A DNA stretch of 64,000 nucleotides from Snowella sp. (lineage in GTDB: Bacteria > Cyanobacteriota > Cyanobacteriia > Cyanobacteriales > Microcystaceae): the NCBI GenBank assembly GCA_003249095.1, contig QBMS01000005.1, positions 17,737-81,736 on the forward strand, read 5' to 3'. The position numbers and the translations under genes were made by a program. This document shows, one piece after another, positions 8,329-44,104 of this stretch (positions are counted from its first letter, which is position 1; the number at the start of each line of letters is the position of its first letter). The notes under the pieces were generated by a model. The model searched no databases. It saw only the letters and a program-made list of their open reading frames with translations, and was not told where the DNA came from.

Positions 8329-9501
8329 ATGAAATTTATTTGCAGTCAAAGCGATTTAAACACTAATCTTTCCCTGGTTAGTCGTGCCGTCCCCTCCCGT
8401 CCTTCCCATCCCGTTTTAGGAAATGTTCTTTTAGTTGCCGATGAAAAAGGGCGAGTCAGTTTAACCGCTTTTGATTTGAGTTTAGGCATTCATACCAGTT
8501 TTATCGCCGATGTTTCCCAGAGCGGAAAAGTTACCCTCCCTGCCAAATTATTAGGGGATATTGTCTCCAAATTACCCGAAGGCGAATTAACCCTCGCGAT
8601 CGATGAAGAAAAGGAATCAGGAGAAAGTATTTTAGCCACCCTAACCTCCGCCTCTGGACGTTTCCAAATTCGGGGATTAACGGCCGATGAATTTCCTGAA
8701 TTACCCACAGTAGATGAAGCAAGTCCTCTGATGTTGCCCGTGGGTGTGTTAAATGAAGGACTCAAAGGAACCCTATTTGCCGCCAGTACGGATGAAACCA
8801 AGCAAGTTTTAACAGGTATTCACCTCAAAGGGTCTGCCGATAGCCTGGAATTTGCCGCAACGGATGGTCATCGTCTCGCCGTCGTCGAAGCTCCAACCCA
8901 GGTAGAAACCGAAGAAGGGGAAGAAAAGGTTCAAGCCAGTAATTTAGAAGATTTCTCCGTCACCATTCCTGCCAGAGCCTTACGGGAACTGGAAAGAATG
9001 TTATCCATGCGGGCCGATAGTGATTTGGTTTCCCTTTGTGTGGATGAAACCCAGGTGATTTTTGAATTGGGCGATCAGCGTTTAACCAGCCGTAAATTAG
9101 AAGGAGCCTATCCCGCCTACCATCAACTCATTCCCCGTCAGTTTAGCCGCACGATTAGCATGGAACGCAAACGGCTGTTAAGTGGTTTGGAGCGAGTTTC
9201 TGTGTTAGCTGATCAAAAAAATAATTTAGTGAAATTTACGCTGAATACTTCCGATAGTCAATTAACGTTATCCGTAGAAGCTCAGGATTTGGGGAATGCG
9301 CGGGAATCTTTACCTGCTGAAATTAGCGGTGAAAGTGGAGAGATTGCGTTTAATGTGAAATATCTAATGGATGGTTTAAGAGCATTACCGACTGGTGAAA
9401 TTCAAATGAAGTTAAATGAGGGGAATCAACCTGTAATTTTTACGCCTTTGGGTGGTTTGAAGATGACTTATTTGGTGATGCCTGTGCAGATTGTTAGATA
9501 G
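8329..9501 (+). CDS. dnaN: DNA polymerase III beta sliding clamp
   Basis: MKFICSQSDLNTNLSLVSRAVPSRPSHPVLGNVLL ... YLVMPVQIVR; ATG at 8329 preferred over the GTG at 8317. Confidence 0.97.
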   Translation: MKFICSQSDLNTNLSLVSRAVPSRPSHPVLGNVLLVADEKGRVSLTAFDLSLGIHTSFIADVSQSGKVTLPAKLLGDIVSKLPEGELTLAIDEEKESGESILATLTSASGRFQIRGLTADEFPELPTVDEASPLMLPVGVLNEGLKGTLFAASTDETKQVLTGIHLKGSADSLEFAATDGHRLAVVEAPTQVETEEGEEKVQASNLEDFSVTIPARALRELERMLSMRADSDLVSLCVDETQVIFELGDQRLTSRKLEGAYPAYHQLIPRQFSRTISMERKRLLSGLERVSVLADQKNNLVKFTLNTSDSQLTLSVEAQDLGNARESLPAEISGESGEIAFNVKYLMDGLRALPTGEIQMKLNEGNQPVIFTPLGGLKMTYLVMPVQIVR

Positions 9502-9626
9502 TTTGCTTTTTGTTAGACAGTTGAGAGACTTTGAGGGGAAGATGATAAAACATTATTCACTCTTCCTCTTTTTTTCAACAAAATTAGACTAATCATACAG
9601 TAACTAGAGATTAGTCGGTTGACAGT

Positions 9627-9998
9627 ATGACAGAAGAAAAAATTTATTATTCAAATTTGACAGGGGAAGAATCTGAGCTAACGATGATACTAGAATTGAA
9701 GAGAGCCATTTCAGTAGAAAGGGTTTTGATCACCAACCATGCTAGACAGGAAGCCGAAAACGATAATTTACGATTAGACGAAATTTACTGGTCAGTAAAT
9801 CATGGAGAATTGATAGAAAACTATCCTGATGATAAACCGTTTCCCAGTTGTTTAATTGTAGGCATTACTCCCAACAACGATCCGATTCACAGCGTTTGGG
9901 CATACAATAGTCAAAAACAAATTGCGATCCTAATCACTGTCTATCGTCCTGATTCAGACAAGTGGATTGATGGACGAGAAAGGAAAAAGCCATGCTAA
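9627..9998 (+). CDS. DUF4258-type putative toxin
   Basis: RVLITNHARQEAENDNLRLDEIYWSVNHGELIENYPDDKPFPSCLIVG pattern; overlaps the next ORF by 7 nt. Confidence 0.75.
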   Translation: MTEEKIYYSNLTGEESELTMILELKRAISVERVLITNHARQEAENDNLRLDEIYWSVNHGELIENYPDDKPFPSCLIVGITPNNDPIHSVWAYNSQKQIAILITVYRPDSDKWIDGRERKKPC

Positions 9999-10231
9999 TA
10001 AATGAAATTTGTCCCGTTTGTGGTGGCCCGACTGTTTTAAAAAAGGTTACAGAAATTATTCGCGGTGGTAAACATACTGCGATCGTTCAAGTAGAGGCTG
10101 AAGTCTGCTTACATTGTGGAGAACGCTTATATACGCCCGAATTTGTTAGAAAATGTGAACAAATTAAAGCAAAATTAGAAAAAGAAGAAACTAAGGACTT
10201 TCAACCAGTGGAAGTTGCTTATCAAGCTTAA
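9992..10231 (+). CDS. YgiT-type zinc finger protein (MqsA N-terminal-like)
   Basis: CPVCGG ... CLHCGERLYTPE. Confidence 0.88.
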   Translation: MLINEICPVCGGPTVLKKVTEIIRGGKHTAIVQVEAEVCLHCGERLYTPEFVRKCEQIKAKLEKEETKDFQPVEVAYQA

Positions 10232-10237
10232 ACGACG

Positions 10238-10534
10238 ATGATTCAAATTATTAATCCCCATGAGGGTGACATTCTCAAATATGAATTTTTAGAAGAACTC
10301 AATATACCCGATAAGGATTTGGCCCTAGCCATTGGTGCGCTCCAAATTGTCATTGAAAACATTATTCAAGGAAAATCTAGAATTACTGCCGATTTGGATT
10401 TGCGTTTATCCCGTTATTTTGGACTTTCAGAAGGATACTTTCTCAGACTCCAAAATGCTTATGAATTAATGGAAGCCAAAAGAATATTAGGAGAAACGTT
10501 AAATCAGATTATTCCTTTAGGAACAAGAATTTAA
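10238..10534 (+). CDS. HigA-like XRE-family antidote
   Basis: HPGD-like start (NPHEGDILKYEFLEELNIPDKDLALAIG ... RITADLDLRLSRYFGLSEGYFLRLQNAYELMEAKR). Confidence 0.88.
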   Translation: MIQIINPHEGDILKYEFLEELNIPDKDLALAIGALQIVIENIIQGKSRITADLDLRLSRYFGLSEGYFLRLQNAYELMEAKRILGETLNQIIPLGTRI

Positions 10535-10614
10535 CCAATTGTCCGTTTAAGATACCAATAAATCTGGATTTAAAGCTCCCCAGCAAAAAAGCACAGGTTA
10601 TTTATTTTTCATGC

Positions 10615-10950
10615 CTAACTTTCTGGATTAACTTCGGCTTGTCTTGATGACAACTTTTCCTGTTCAACTTCCGCCTGAAGTTTAGCTTGCTCTTCAGGAG
10701 TCATACTTTCCCAACGTTTTTGGATGATAGCCTCTTCATAATCTTTAATTTGTTTATGGTAGGTCATATCATTGGTCAAGACACGGAAAATATAGGAGAA
10801 TAACCAAAGAATTAAGACTCCAACCAAAAATGCCTGAGACCAGACTCCCGCTTTTTGGGGATCTAATCCGCTTACTTGCAAGAGCAGATAAACCACTAAT
10901 CCCGATACAAAGAAAGCAGTGATCAGCGCGATCGCATCAATACGGCGCAT
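10615..10950 (-). CDS. DUF3007 family membrane protein
   Basis: Two TM helices then MTYHKQIKDYEEAIIQKRWESMTPEEQAKLQAEVE; immediately downstream of ndhL, as usual in cyanobacteria. Confidence 0.8.
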   Translation of the reverse strand: MRRIDAIALITAFFVSGLVVYLLLQVSGLDPQKAGVWSQAFLVGVLILWLFSYIFRVLTNDMTYHKQIKDYEEAIIQKRWESMTPEEQAKLQAEVEQEKLSSRQAEVNPES

Positions 10951-25965: not shown

Positions 25966-26718
25966 TTGGCTATTCCGCTTCTAGAGTACGGGCCAAAAAG
26001 TCAGAACGTGCGCGTTGAAGGGTTTGAAGTCGGTAATGACGAGACACCCCCAGTGTTTACGACTGAAAACCTACTTTCTCCTTCCGAAATGGGCAACTTG
26101 ATCGAAGCCGCCTATCGTCAAATTTTCTTCCATGCCTTCAAGTGGGACAGAGAAAAAATTCTGGAATCCCAACTCCGCAATGGACAATTGACCGTAAGAG
26201 ACTTCATTCGGGGACTATTGCTCTCGAATACCTACCGCACGAGTTTTTATGATAAAAACAGTAATTACCGCTTTGTCGAACACACTGTTCAAAAAGTTTT
26301 AGGCCGCGCGGTTTATAACGAACGGGAGAAAATTGCTTGGTCAATTGTTGTGGCGACTAAAGGCATTCAGGGCTTTGTCGATACCCTGCTCAATAGCGAT
26401 GAATATCTAAATAGTTTCGGTTATGATACCGTTCCCTATCAACGTCGTCGCAATCTACCTGGAAGAGAATTAGGTGAGCGTCCCTTTAACATCACCTCTC
26501 CCCGTTACGATGCGTACCACCGTCGTCAGTTGGGCTTCCCCCAAATTGTTTGGCAAAACGAAATTCGTCGTTTCGTTCCCCAGGACAAAAAAGCAAAAGC
26601 AGGCGATCCCAGTCTTTTCTTAGGAATGGTTCGGAGCATCAATCCGACTGTCAGTCCTACGCCTAAAATTTCGGCTCTCAATATTAATATTGAAGCGTCC
26701 GTACCCCGTCGGCGTTAA
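25966..26718 (+). CDS. cpcG: Phycobilisome rod-core linker polypeptide CpcG
   Basis: [27 protein letters not shown]..., pfam00427-type linker domain; TTG start preceded by GGAGG. Confidence 0.95.
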
Positions 26719-26821
26719 TTTGGTTTTAACCAGACTTTTTTAAGGAAAGTTATTGATTGGCAAGATGATTAGGTCTTTTTGATTTGATTATCCTGTGGAT
26801 CAGTGGCTTTCCTTTATTTTG

Positions 26822-26925
26822 GGGTTTGCCCCCTAACCCCGAATTTTGGGGATAATAAAGCCCTTTAACTCCCAATTTTAGGGAAAATAAAGCCCCCTAG
26901 CCCCCAACTTTGGGGGAATTAGAAT
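26822..26925. repeat. Imperfect tandem/palindromic CCCCTAACCCC...TTTTGGGG repeats
   Basis: Three degenerate copies of AATAAAGCCCCCTAACCCCCAATTTTGGGGA between cpcG and the next gene. Confidence 0.7.
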
Positions 26926-26941
26926 TAGTTAAAAGCGGTGT

Positions 26942-27397
26942 TCAGCATAATCCAAATTCTTGCAGAGCTGGATAAAAATTATGGTTTTCGTGACTGGCTC
27001 GACTGAGTTTGATCAGGGCAAAGCGTTGAATTGGGGTCAGCGATCGCCATTGAGATTGGGTTAAAGTTAATCCTGTTTCGATCGCCTTGGATTGAACACT
27101 ATCAGGAATAATGTCTGGATCTAACCAGGGAGGATTAGAGGCGATCGCAATTTCCGTTGCGGGTTCACCTGTTTTTTGAGTAATTAAATCCTGTAGAAAC
27201 TGCCGATAATTCTCGATTTCATCAGACGTTGAACAGGGAAGTTGAAGTAAAGATTGACGTTCCTCTGAATTGAATTGATTCCAATGGACTAACTTTAGTT
27301 TGACACCGCAGGTATCTAAATTTAACCTGACCAACATGGGAATACAGCGCAGAGATTCTACAAAATCTTGCTCGAATTGAAAAAAATAATCGGTCAT
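26942..27397 (-). CDS. Hypothetical protein (conserved cyanobacterial type)
   Basis: 151-aa ORF, overlaps the upstream PAP2 ORF by 4 nt. Confidence 0.7.
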   Translation of the reverse strand: MTDYFFQFEQDFVESLRCIPMLVRLNLDTCGVKLKLVHWNQFNSEERQSLLQLPCSTSDEIENYRQFLQDLITQKTGEPATEIAIASNPPWLDPDIIPDSVQSKAIETGLTLTQSQWRSLTPIQRFALIKLSRASHENHNFYPALQEFGLC

Positions 27398-28098
27398 ATT
27401 TTAAGTTGATTTTTCGGAAAATAATAGGTCTCAGGAGCCGCCCGTTGTAATAAGGCGATCGCCAATGTTAACCAAACAAAACCCACACTGTAACCCGCTA
27501 TAATATCGGTTGCCCAGTGAACTCGACAATAGGTACTACTTAGTCCAATTAATCCTACCCACAACATTGCTCCTAGATAAATATATTTTTTAAGATGGGG
27601 AAAATGAGTTGACAATAGAAAAGCTATATAGAAATAAAAAACCACACTCCCCGCCGAATGGCCACTCGGAAAACTTTTACCATCGACATTAACTAAACTG
27701 GCAAGAGATTCGGAAAAAGATCCTGGACGAATGCGACCAAAGATGGGTTTTAGGATCTGATCAATTAATAATAAAATTCCCAAAGACGCAAAGGCTAAAT
27801 ATTTGGCTTCTTCCCAATAACGTTTCCAAAAGAGATAACCTAAACTCCCTAAGACGACAAAAGCCGTAACATTCGCTCCTGTCATTATATAAATAATTTT
27901 TAAAACTTCACCTATACTAGGCGGAATAACGGTATGTAACCAATTTAAAAATTGGATATCCCAAGGAACTTCTCTTGTCCCTTTTAACTGGGGGCCAATA
28001 ATCGCGATCGCAACAATAATAATCAGACAAATGACTAATCGAACCTTGCCTATTACTTGAATGAAAGGGATTTTATCGTGTTTTTGAGTTAGCTTCAT
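27394..28098 (-). CDS. PAP2-superfamily membrane phosphatase
   Basis: KPIFGRIRP, SFPSGHSAGS, CRVHWATDIIAGYSVG motifs. Confidence 0.93.
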   Translation of the reverse strand: MKLTQKHDKIPFIQVIGKVRLVICLIIIVAIAIIGPQLKGTREVPWDIQFLNWLHTVIPPSIGEVLKIIYIMTGANVTAFVVLGSLGYLFWKRYWEEAKYLAFASLGILLLIDQILKPIFGRIRPGSFSESLASLVNVDGKSFPSGHSAGSVVFYFYIAFLLSTHFPHLKKYIYLGAMLWVGLIGLSSTYCRVHWATDIIAGYSVGFVWLTLAIALLQRAAPETYYFPKNQLKI

Positions 28099-30135: not shown

Positions 30136-30828
30136 TTAATTATCTTGTAAATATTTTGCAAATTCCCTGAGAGATTCATTTCTTGCGAGAGTTTGCTGAT
30201 TAATTTCAATATATTTTGCAACTTGAGGTGAATCACTTTCTTCATAACGTTTCTCCTTTAATTTTTTGCTAAGAATAGGATTGATTTTAAAATTAATTCT
30301 GTCAGAAAGAATTTTTATTAAATATTCTTTAGCTCCTTTACCGCCTGGAATTGCTTCAACAATTAATTCCGTATTTCCGCGCTGATTTTTTTTGGAAAAG
30401 TCTATCCAATCTTTTTTAATTCTAGTATTTTCATCTTTAGTAAAGTAACAACAGATTCCTAAACAATCAATTAATAACCATGATTCAAGCTCTTGTTTGA
30501 TATAAATCAAAATAGCTTTATCATTAGAGTTAACAACTTTTGTAATTCTGTTAACTAAAGAATTGGGTTCTCCACGACGTTTAAAATGAGATTCAACTCC
30601 GTCATAATCAATCAGAAAAATAACTAGATCACTCGTTTTGAGGTAAATATTTACCTGCTTTTGTAATCCATCTTTTTGATTTTTCTGGAATGCCTGATTA
30701 TAAGCGTCTTTCGATGCTTCTAAAATTTTAATGTCACTGCCATAAAATGCAATAATTTTTTCGGCTATACAACGAACTGCTTTACTATCATAATTTGATT
30801 CAGGAGTCCAAATACGAATACTAGGCAT
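30136..30828 (-). CDS. Putative TOPRIM-like nuclease subunit (DUF4276/RloB-like)
   Basis: IRIWTPESNYD (candidate catalytic Glu) and LVIFLIDYDGVESHF (DxD); overlaps the upstream ATPase by 8 nt. Confidence 0.65.
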   Translation of the reverse strand: MPSIRIWTPESNYDSKAVRCIAEKIIAFYGSDIKILEASKDAYNQAFQKNQKDGLQKQVNIYLKTSDLVIFLIDYDGVESHFKRRGEPNSLVNRITKVVNSNDKAILIYIKQELESWLLIDCLGICCYFTKDENTRIKKDWIDFSKKNQRGNTELIVEAIPGGKGAKEYLIKILSDRINFKINPILSKKLKEKRYEESDSPQVAKYIEINQQTLARNESLREFAKYLQDN

Positions 30829-31981
30829 ATTGAGATTCTAATAACTCCTGTAATAAGTTACTATGATAAACGGCACTACCAACGCCAAAATCCCGCATCC
30901 ATTCGGCTAAATCTTCTCTTTCTTGACTTAATTGATCTAATCTAAAAACTTGAGTTCCAGAAGTATCTTTTTTACTTAATAACAAAACAGAAATATCAGA
31001 ATTAATTTCATCAGAACTAAAACAATCTAGTAGCTGTGAACTGTGAGTTGTAATAACAACTTGAGTTCTCTGAGAAAGTTTTTTTAAAATAGAGGCAACA
31101 GTTGTTAGAATAGCTGGATGTAAATTTCTTTCAGGTTCCTCAATCCCTATTAACGGAGGTAAATTATCGTTATGTAGTAGGACATAATAGGCAATGATTC
31201 TGAGTGTACCATCAGATAAACCAGATAATTTCACTTTTTGTCCATCTATTTCTTTTACTCTGAGATCACTTTTTCCAGAAACCTCTAAAAGTATTCCCAA
31301 ACAATCTTGTAACGCTTGATTAACTTCATTAAACTTTTCTTGTTCTTTTGATTCCCAGTATAACAAGACCTCTTCAAGATACTCACCATCAATATCTAAA
31401 GTAGGCATTTTTTCTTGTTCACTTTCCATTATAAACCTCACACTCCTTCTGTCTCTCCTCATCATACGTGGATCTAAATCATAAAACTCCCATGATTTCA
31501 TAAACTCAGATAATTGAGCTGTTAGAGGTTTATTCCCAAAATCACCCGCCGCTTTTAGAGCTAAACTCCCTTCTTTTGATTGGTAATTTTGAGTGTTTTC
31601 TCCATCTTCATCTCGAACTTCGCCCTGATTTTCGTGAATATTAATTACGGTTATTTCTCCAGTTTTTAATACTTCTCTAGAAAAATTTACTTTTTTATTA
31701 TTTCTTGATATACAAACTTTATAATCTATATCTTTATTATCTACTTTTGTAATAATTTCTAGTGTTAATGCTTGGTCAGTACTATTTCTGAGTAAATCTT
31801 CAATCAACTTCATGGGTGGTGAAGAACTTATTTGGACAATTTTGCCAAACAAGCGAAGAGCTTCTAAGCAATTAGATTTTCCTGTCGCATTAGCCCCGAC
31901 AATAATTGTTAAATCCCGAAAATCTAACTCAACATCTTCTAAACTTTTAAAATTTTTGATTTTAGCTGATATAAGTCGCAT
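30821..31981 (-). CDS. ABC/AAA15-type ATPase (OLD/AriA/AbiL-like)
   Basis: Walker A GANATGKSN, Q-loop-like region, signature LSGLSDGTLR, Walker B LIGIEEPERNLHP, switch VVITTHSSQLLD. Confidence 0.9.
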   Translation of the reverse strand: MRLISAKIKNFKSLEDVELDFRDLTIIVGANATGKSNCLEALRLFGKIVQISSSPPMKLIEDLLRNSTDQALTLEIITKVDNKDIDYKVCISRNNKKVNFSREVLKTGEITVINIHENQGEVRDEDGENTQNYQSKEGSLALKAAGDFGNKPLTAQLSEFMKSWEFYDLDPRMMRRDRRSVRFIMESEQEKMPTLDIDGEYLEEVLLYWESKEQEKFNEVNQALQDCLGILLEVSGKSDLRVKEIDGQKVKLSGLSDGTLRIIAYYVLLHNDNLPPLIGIEEPERNLHPAILTTVASILKKLSQRTQVVITTHSSQLLDCFSSDEINSDISVLLLSKKDTSGTQVFRLDQLSQEREDLAEWMRDFGVGSAVYHSNLLQELLESQYA

Positions 31982-42088: not shown

Positions 42089-42925
42089 TTAAAAGTCACC
42101 TTCAGCGACCTGTAAGCAAGTTAATCCTAATTGTCGCCACATTTGTACTACTTGATTTCTATCATCTAATACAAAATCAATATTATAAAAACCTCGAATT
42201 TGAGTGTCAAATATTTCTTTCTTGATAATAGCATCTTTGCGAAAATCTCCTGTCTCTCTCATGATTAATTTTTCATAATTAATTTGATGTTTATCTAAAA
42301 AATTAATCGTTTGTTCTCGATATTTATCTTCTCTCCCTGATACTAATAGCACTAACTTATCTTTAATTAAGGAAGCTACAACAGGATTTAAGATATCATT
42401 TTCACACCTTGAAGCATCGTAGGGACTTCTACCATTCAAAAGAGCTAAGGTTCCATCAAGGTCACAAATAATGGCATGGGGTAAATTGGGGTCAATAACA
42501 ATTTCCTCTGGCTTGGGAGCCAAAAAATCGTTATACATTTGTCGAATAACTTTTTCCCCAACGGAATTTAGGCGATTAAGATCTCTTTTAATGCACGTTT
42601 CAAGTTCAACATCAGTAAAATCTTGAATAATAACTTCTGCGATACCCTTAGTTAATTCTCGAATTGTCTTTTCGTGTTTGGGATGCAAATTAGTATCATC
42701 AATAATCACGTGCTTTCCTTCTTCGAGAGCCATTAACATGATTTGATTCCGAATTTTTAGGACAAATTTTTCTGCATCTTTAGAATGCTTGGAATTGTCT
42801 AGCATTGCTCTCAAATCATCTTTATTGATACGTTTATATTGATTAGGGTTTTTATCAATCAGTTTTTTTGCCCAGGTAGATTTTCCGCTTCCTGGCAATC
42901 CCTTAGTCATAATCACTTTTTTCAT
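42089..42925 (-). CDS. Pnkp-like polynucleotide 5'-kinase / 3'-phosphatase
   Basis: P-loop GLPGSGKSTWAKKL, then HAD-type CDLDGTLALLNGRSPYD ... VLLVSGREDKYREQT ... FVLDDRNQVVQMWR; same domain order as T4 Pnkp. Confidence 0.9.
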   Translation of the reverse strand: MKKVIMTKGLPGSGKSTWAKKLIDKNPNQYKRINKDDLRAMLDNSKHSKDAEKFVLKIRNQIMLMALEEGKHVIIDDTNLHPKHEKTIRELTKGIAEVIIQDFTDVELETCIKRDLNRLNSVGEKVIRQMYNDFLAPKPEEIVIDPNLPHAIICDLDGTLALLNGRSPYDASRCENDILNPVVASLIKDKLVLLVSGREDKYREQTINFLDKHQINYEKLIMRETGDFRKDAIIKKEIFDTQIRGFYNIDFVLDDRNQVVQMWRQLGLTCLQVAEGDF

Positions 42926-43935
42926 ATTTCTAGTTTAAAGGGTTTACTATGCTCAGGTTTAATCATTTTCCAAATTAGCTCGGAAGGATCTTTTTCATCT
43001 AATAGGCGAAACATGACGTGGGGATATTTTTGAGTTAAAAAATAGGCGGCTGTTTCCTTGCGAGTCTCAAAGGTTTTAAAGGCAGATTTTGCTTCTGATA
43101 AAATCGCGTCAAATTGCTGGGTTAATTCCATTTTAGTTTGTTTAACCCATTCATAAAATTCATCGGGAACTTTTTCTAGTAATTCTTCAAAGGATTTTCC
43201 TGTGGCGAGATTTTCCCAGACAACGGTGCTAGAAGTTTGAGTAATAATACGATGGAGTCTGACGTATTCTGAGAATTTGACTTTGACCCGAAATCCATTT
43301 TTAAAACGAATGACAAAACCTTCCTGATTTTCTTTTTCAATTTCTCGTAATTGGCTTAAATCATTAATGCCATTAAATTTTTTGACGATGGGAAAACCAA
43401 TATCGGGAATCAATAAATCTTGACCTGTTTGAGAGTCTAGGACTGCCAATAAAATGAGGTCATCTAGGTCGCCATAATTAACCACAATTCTGTTTTCGGG
43501 ATAAATAATTTCAAATAAATAGGTATGTTCCCGATTGAGTGAATTAAAGGTATGGCCATAACGATCGCGTAATAATTGGGTAGCGTGCAGGGCTTGATCG
43601 CTGCTAAAACTTCCCCTAGTGGCGATCGCGGGCTTATCATTAATCCAATAAAGAATTCCTAGAGAACCATCTTCTTTATTAAAAACATCAAAGGCTTCCT
43701 GGGGAATTTCTTCAGGAGAATGTTCCTCTAAATTGAAGAATTTTTTAAAGGGTCTGGCGACAATATTCATTTCTTTGTCGAGAATTAATCCTCGCGTCAT
43801 GAGGGTGATCTCATTCCAAAGTTTTTGATATTGAACCAAGGGAGAATAGTTATAAATAAACAGATCAGTATCAGGATGTTTTTGCACTAATACTAATTTT
43901 TGTTCGAGCATTGACTTTAATAAATCTTTGTCCAT
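42922..43935 (-). CDS. T4 Rnl1-like RNA ligase
   Basis: Motif I FNKEDGSLG (KxDG), FEIIYPENRIVVNYG, EGFVIRFKNGFRVKVKFSEYVRLH; overlaps the Pnkp-like gene by 4 nt. Confidence 0.88.
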   Translation of the reverse strand: MDKDLLKSMLEQKLVLVQKHPDTDLFIYNYSPLVQYQKLWNEITLMTRGLILDKEMNIVARPFKKFFNLEEHSPEEIPQEAFDVFNKEDGSLGILYWINDKPAIATRGSFSSDQALHATQLLRDRYGHTFNSLNREHTYLFEIIYPENRIVVNYGDLDDLILLAVLDSQTGQDLLIPDIGFPIVKKFNGINDLSQLREIEKENQEGFVIRFKNGFRVKVKFSEYVRLHRIITQTSSTVVWENLATGKSFEELLEKVPDEFYEWVKQTKMELTQQFDAILSEAKSAFKTFETRKETAAYFLTQKYPHVMFRLLDEKDPSELIWKMIKPEHSKPFKLEI

Positions 43936-44104
43936 GCGTTTTTTTGTAATGCTAAATTTTTTTTGCAAAACTGAAGTAATTTACAAATTTATCAAATACT
44001 TTTTGGAACATAAGTTTAAGGACAAAAGATATTCTGTCCCTACGGCTGTGTTGTATTTCTATTAGTTTTGGATTTTTAAGGCCTATCCCAGAATTGTATT
44101 GAAA

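Follow-up and report, generated by a model that had tools for sequence, protein, structure and literature searches.

Several described systems couple an OLD-type ATPase to a Toprim nuclease, either within one protein or as the products of two genes. In PARIS (AriA plus AriB, proposed as OLD class 4), hexamers of AriA sequester three AriB subunits, and the binding of phage proteins such as Ocr to AriA leads to the release of AriB, which is a two-metal Toprim tRNase (PMC12409363). AbiL is likewise bicistronic, consisting of the ATPase AbiLi and AbiLii/RloB, and AbiLii is its toxic Toprim effector (PMC10440598). The OLD nucleases of class 1 (TsOLD and P2 Old) and class 2 (GajA and BpOLD) have the same type of ATPase, and OLD and GajA cleave DNA (PMC10568477). 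The two-metal site of BpOLD comprises E400, D455, and D457 for metal A and E404, T506, and E508 for metal B, with K562 as the catalytic lysine (PMC6755086), and that of TsOLD comprises E377, D381, D431, D433, S478, and E480 (PMC7049728). HEC-01 (a PADLOC "Hma-embedded candidate"), in which an ATPase is followed by a DUF4276 protein, is itself only a candidate system; several HECs show antiviral activity (2026 paper, PMC12988326). Pfam gives DUF4276 no function, and no paper found in the literature searched names it.

The gene pair described here, termed A-B, lies in a 64,000-nucleotide stretch of a Snowella sp. chromosome (contig QBMS01000005.1; 4.6-Mb assembly), and this whole stretch is referred to below as the window. 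Its features are as follows, with invariance judged over 16 homologues that are about 45 to 61% identical to the window proteins.

30821-31981, minus strand: gene A, a 386-aa OLD/ABC-type ATPase with matches to PADLOC HEC-01A and Pfam AAA_21/AAA_15
31871-31897, minus strand: Walker A motif GANATGKSN, A residues 29-37 (G29, N31, G34, K35, and S36 invariant)
31199-31216, minus strand: ABC signature-like SDGTLR, A residues 256-261 (S256-T259 and R261 invariant)
31115-31153, minus strand: Walker B motif LIGIEEPERNLHP, A residues 277-289 (I280-N286, H288, and P289 invariant)
31034-31051, minus strand: H-loop TTHSSQ, A residues 311-316 (invariant)
30821-30828, minus strand: 8 nt shared by the end of A (stop region) and the start of B, from the ORF coordinates
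30136-30828, minus strand: gene B, a 230-aa divergent DUF4276 protein with a predicted Toprim-like nuclease fold
30787-30801, minus strand: E10 and D14 of B, the predicted Toprim Glu and metal-B acid, within IWTPESNYD, residues 6-14 (invariant)
30601-30609, minus strand: D74xD76 of B, the candidate DxD, within FLIDYDGVESH, residues 71-81 (invariant; also in the related DUF4276 group)
30484-30492, minus strand: E113xE115 of B, the candidate third pair of acids, in QELESWLLID, following strand 4 (invariant)
30328-30330, minus strand: K167 of B, the candidate catalytic lysine (invariant)

Both open reading frames and the 8-nt overlap reported in an earlier note on this DNA are present at these positions, and every motif that it quoted can be placed at definite residues of A or B. 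The overlap likely couples translation of the two genes, which are separate ORFs both here and in every intact relative, with a junction gap of -8, +1, +5, or +7 nt in all intact copies. Purifying selection acts on both genes: dN/dS stays under 1 in each of ten pairs (0.08 to 0.48 for A and 0.13 to 0.83 for B). Together with the motif invariance in 16 homologues, this shows that neither ORF arose by chance. Divergence in A tracks divergence in B (Mantel r = 0.875, P = 0.0002), and the two genes form one module. We regard it as a real, conserved, and probably defensive one, and we estimate a probability of roughly 0.7 that A-B is an ATPase-gated Toprim nuclease defence module with a PARIS- or AbiL-like way of working, belonging to a divergent HEC-01-type subfamily. 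By analogy with the described systems, A would be the sensor or regulator and B the effector. At one pair of loci (L012 and L013), the A proteins are 96% identical and the B proteins only 79% (dS of 0.18 versus 0.51), a contrast suggesting that B alone was exchanged or diverged faster.

The Walker A motif, SDGT.R, IEEPERN.HP, and TTHSSQ are kept without exception in the 16 A sequences. Pfam matches to A include AAA_21 (3e-28) and AAA_15 (3e-23), and among the PADLOC models, HEC-01A (E = 3e-45) ranks above AriA (5e-30), AbiLi (4e-27), Mad3, and NsnB; it is the top model for A in all 16 homologues. In a maximum-likelihood tree of the ATPases, the window family is a single clade (support, 100/100). 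It groups (89/79) with HEC-01A-like ATPases that are paired with DUF4276 proteins carrying the DxD and ELE(A/S)WF motifs, and the RloB-linked ATPases form a separate clade. The ATPases nearest A are partnered by the DUF4276 proteins nearest B.

The distribution of the pair is patchy. B is present in 8 of 386 genomes of the phylum, a B profile search recovers it from 24 of the order's 391 genomes, and the exact A-B subfamily had no copy in our phage, plasmid, and viral-contig searches. Twenty loci fall into nine genomic-site groups. A hyp-cobS-PPC block is conserved in nearly all members of the window's family; only in the window genome and one other (G577, with proteins 75% identical) does the A-B pair follow PPC. 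The pair is thus accessory, inserted at a core locus and retained in two genera. In nearly all cyanobacterial relatives with an intact or truncated B, A lies directly upstream, the exceptions being two badly decayed copies, one with A gone (G663) and one with fragments of both genes (G145).

Seven loci in total are broken. In three of these (L024, L092/L047, and L084), B is destroyed and A is intact; another three have damage to both genes or have lost A; and in the last (L020), A is frame-broken and B is intact. Although from small numbers, this bias is consistent with B being the costly member of the pair. The pair at L090 (genome G048) is truncated by a deletion that fuses A, from about residue 335, with B, from about residue 140; relatives of that genome have the pair intact.

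The same decay pattern bears on the reading of A-B as a plain toxin-antitoxin or addiction pair, with B as nuclease toxin and A as antitoxin, maintained by post-segregational killing or a stress response and not by phage defence. Loss of B with retention of A at three of the seven broken loci, the overlapping bicistronic layout, and the validation of AAA/Toprim pairs as toxin-neutraliser pairs (PMC10440598) all agree with it. However, the pair is chromosomal at the sites read, with no match in the plasmid search, and the ATPase family of A is common to the sensor ATPases of defence systems. The locus with a broken A and an intact B also counts against an addiction pair; this locus is awkward for the defence module as well, if A is the sole restraint on B. 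We consider an addiction pair unlikely and continue to favor an ATPase-gated defence module.

The assignment of B requires more-sensitive comparisons, as the window protein scores 23.3 bits against PF14103 (DUF4276), under the 30.2-bit gathering cut-off, a value that one relative (G030) does reach. All 16 B family members nonetheless match PF14103 (best, 3e-7), and all 16 match the HEC-01B model PDLC04205; the best HEC-01B value is 1e-4 for the window B, with partial coverage, and other members reach 3e-5. In profile comparisons with hhalign, the B profile aligned to a broad DUF4276 set with a probability of 86% and to the DxD subgroup with 91.8% (7e-7), versus 1.5% for RloB, 0.65% for DUF4435, and less than 4% for shuffled controls. 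Motif alignment gives B and its DUF4276 relatives E, DxD, and ELExW in common. On these similarities, B is a divergent DUF4276 protein, kin to the DUF4276 partners of HEC-01A ATPases, and the earlier suggestion that it is DUF4276-like, and not of the DUF4435 or RloB type, holds.

Sequence searches of the PDB with B or B profiles gave no match, and evidence on its fold comes from AlphaFold2 models. A first model, built from 16 close sequences, had an unreliable C-terminal half (pLDDT 73); its PDB matches were only generic Rossmann folds, and its top viral match was an RloB-like protein. A second model, built from 18 sequences, the two added being distant DUF4276 rows from viral contigs, reached a pLDDT of 87 and a pTM of 0.86. 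Its top Foldseek match in the PDB is 6nk8, the C-terminal part of Burkholderia OLD that includes its Toprim (probability, 0.97; TM, 0.41/0.45; E = 0.013), a match that is not significant alone. In this model, E10 follows the strand at residues 3 to 7, and the DxD ends the strand at residues 68 to 74. The predicted structure offers moderate support for a Toprim-like four-strand parallel alpha/beta core in B, with the Glu after strand 1 and the DxD after strand 3, and to that degree it bears out the TOPRIM fold that had been proposed from the sequence.

Within this predicted fold, E10, D14, D74, D76, E113, E115, and K167 are invariant in all 16 B sequences. The spacing of E10 and D14 (+4) equals that of E400/E404 in BpOLD and E377/D381 in TsOLD, E113 and E115 match T506/E508 of BpOLD and S478/E480 of TsOLD by order and spacing, and K167 corresponds to BpOLD K562 by position only. 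When searched with a regular expression for a site of the OLD order, all 16 members matched (the window protein at E10), as did 3.5% of the background ORFs and 0.2% of the shuffled versions of B. The region around E113xE115 corresponds to the ELE(A/S)WF..D of the DUF4276 partners, and the D14 position is not conserved across the wider DUF4276 subgroup. Judged by order, spacing, and predicted secondary structure, B appears to reproduce the OLD two-metal site. The Glu and DxD that had been read earlier as fitting a TOPRIM fold are among the invariant residues (E10, D74, and D76), but the candidate site is larger, comprising E10/D14, DxD, ExE, and K.

These residues also weigh on whether B might instead be a catalytically inactive or regulatory DUF4276 protein, with a Rossmann-like binding domain, serving an A that is the active component. 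The Foldseek list below 6nk8, which consists mostly of generic Rossmann-like folds, would suit such a role, but the acidic and lysine positions of the OLD site are all invariant in 16 divergent members, and the pattern is rare in the background ORFs. An inactive B is very unlikely in our judgment, and B as the candidate nuclease of a defence module is the reading taken forward here.

How, then, does the pair compare with the described systems? With PARIS, it shares the split between an OLD-type ATPase and a Toprim partner and a similar acidic site, but AriB is DUF4435-like; with AbiL, it shares the bicistronic arrangement of an ATPase and a Toprim-related effector, but A falls outside the RloB-linked ATPase clade. 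Since the second subunit matches neither DUF4435 nor RloB, A-B is not a member of PARIS or AbiL, and we rejected both labels. From the OLD nucleases, whose ATPase type it has, the pair differs in that the ATPase and Toprim parts are separate genes, although the order E(x3)D/E, DxD, [TSDE]xE, K recurs in B and the BpOLD Toprim region is the closest match to its model. With HEC-01, it has in common the order of ATPase and then DUF4276, HEC-01A as the top PADLOC match for every A, and a weak but consistent match of B to HEC-01B. It differs in a B that stays under the Pfam cut-off and covers the HEC-01B models in part, in extra segments of B at about residues 131-150 and 172-195, in a PES motif in place of (V/L)EExS, and in ATPases that form their own clade. 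From sequence comparison, A-B is best classed as a divergent HEC-01-type subfamily. The resemblance to PARIS, AbiL, and OLD put forward in the earlier note stands for the split ATPase/Toprim-like plan, whereas the closest named candidate is HEC-01.

In the window, which carries a phycobilisome linker, cobS, and other housekeeping genes, housekeeping genes flank the pair, and no UvrD-like helicase adjoins it. Most relatives have housekeeping flanks as well, not defence islands, and 92 flanking proteins of the relatives show no enrichment in defence genes, with single cases only (a PDC-M07 pair in L022 and one PDC-S03). At the former locus, in Dolichospermum FACHB-1091, an ATPase-led pair (8974-10769) lies directly downstream of A-B, and one ATPase among the neighbours scanned, most likely that of the downstream pair, matches PDC-M07A at 2.5e-177. 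Because the window's own neighbourhood consists of housekeeping genes, a defence role is read from the contexts of relatives. DUF4276 proteins occur in 45 of 194 cyanobacterial genomes, and all 30 of the cyanobacterial DUF4276 loci fetched have an A-like OLD-type ATPase upstream. Of the nearest DUF4276 relatives, one lies between hsdS and hsdR in a type I restriction operon of a Meiothermus plasmid, another has the same position in a type I restriction-modification operon on a viral contig (L232, read from translated ORFs), and a third is on a Rahnella plasmid, within a phage-like region. On plasmid pSYSM of Synechocystis PCC 6803 (25994-27735), an AAA ATPase and a DUF4276 protein (MYO_RS16670/16675) adjoin a cysteine desulfurase, a phosphorothioation-associated methyltransferase, a nucleotidyltransferase/DUF86 pair (MntA/HepT-like), and HigBA, in what is likely a defence island. 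A role in host DNA repair or chromosome maintenance, with A-B as a RecF/OLD-type pair and not a defence system, would agree with the matches of A to RecF and SMC models and with the contact of OLD proteins with recombination biology, but it is very unlikely, as A-B is very patchy, mobile between sites, and often decayed, unlike repair genes, and its closest relatives lie in restriction and phosphorothioation islands.

Elsewhere in the window genome, further DUF4276, DUF4435, and RloB matches were found on contigs C17, C111, C177, C22, C165, and C212, and the genome may hold several OLD-type modules. The window itself also carries a T4-type tRNA-repair cassette (42092-43968, minus strand), here located on a bacterial chromosome, in which a Pnkp-like kinase-phosphatase (AAA_33 plus HAD_PNKP, 9e-48) adjoins a T4 RNA ligase 1-like protein (PF09511, 2.5e-18). 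At E <= 1e-10, 64 of the order's 391 genomes have the ligase-like protein. We considered the cassette as an antidote partner of A-B and rejected it, as the two show no association (co-occurrence in 6 of 24 pair-bearing versus 58 of 367 other genomes; P = 0.25).

Returning to A-B as a gated defence module, its steps can be sketched by analogy. As in PARIS, A may keep B inactive in an ATP-dependent complex, would sense a phage component or phage-induced damage, and would then release or activate B. Once active, B may cleave nucleic acid, either tRNA or other RNA like AriB or DNA like OLD and GajA, and this cleavage would halt phage growth at the expense of the infected cell. Somewhat more tentatively, and with slightly less than even confidence, we suggest that A-B represents an uncharacterised split-OLD branch in which DUF4276 is the Toprim nuclease effector, with a new target (tRNA, rRNA, or DNA) and a new trigger.

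The predicted two-metal Toprim site makes DUF4276, a widespread family of "unknown" proteins, a testable nuclease effector, and the presence of a pair with the same layout on pSYSM makes the genetics straightforward. If the split-OLD reading is true, A-B would also join a small number of PARIS-like systems that act against cyanophages in cyanobacteria.
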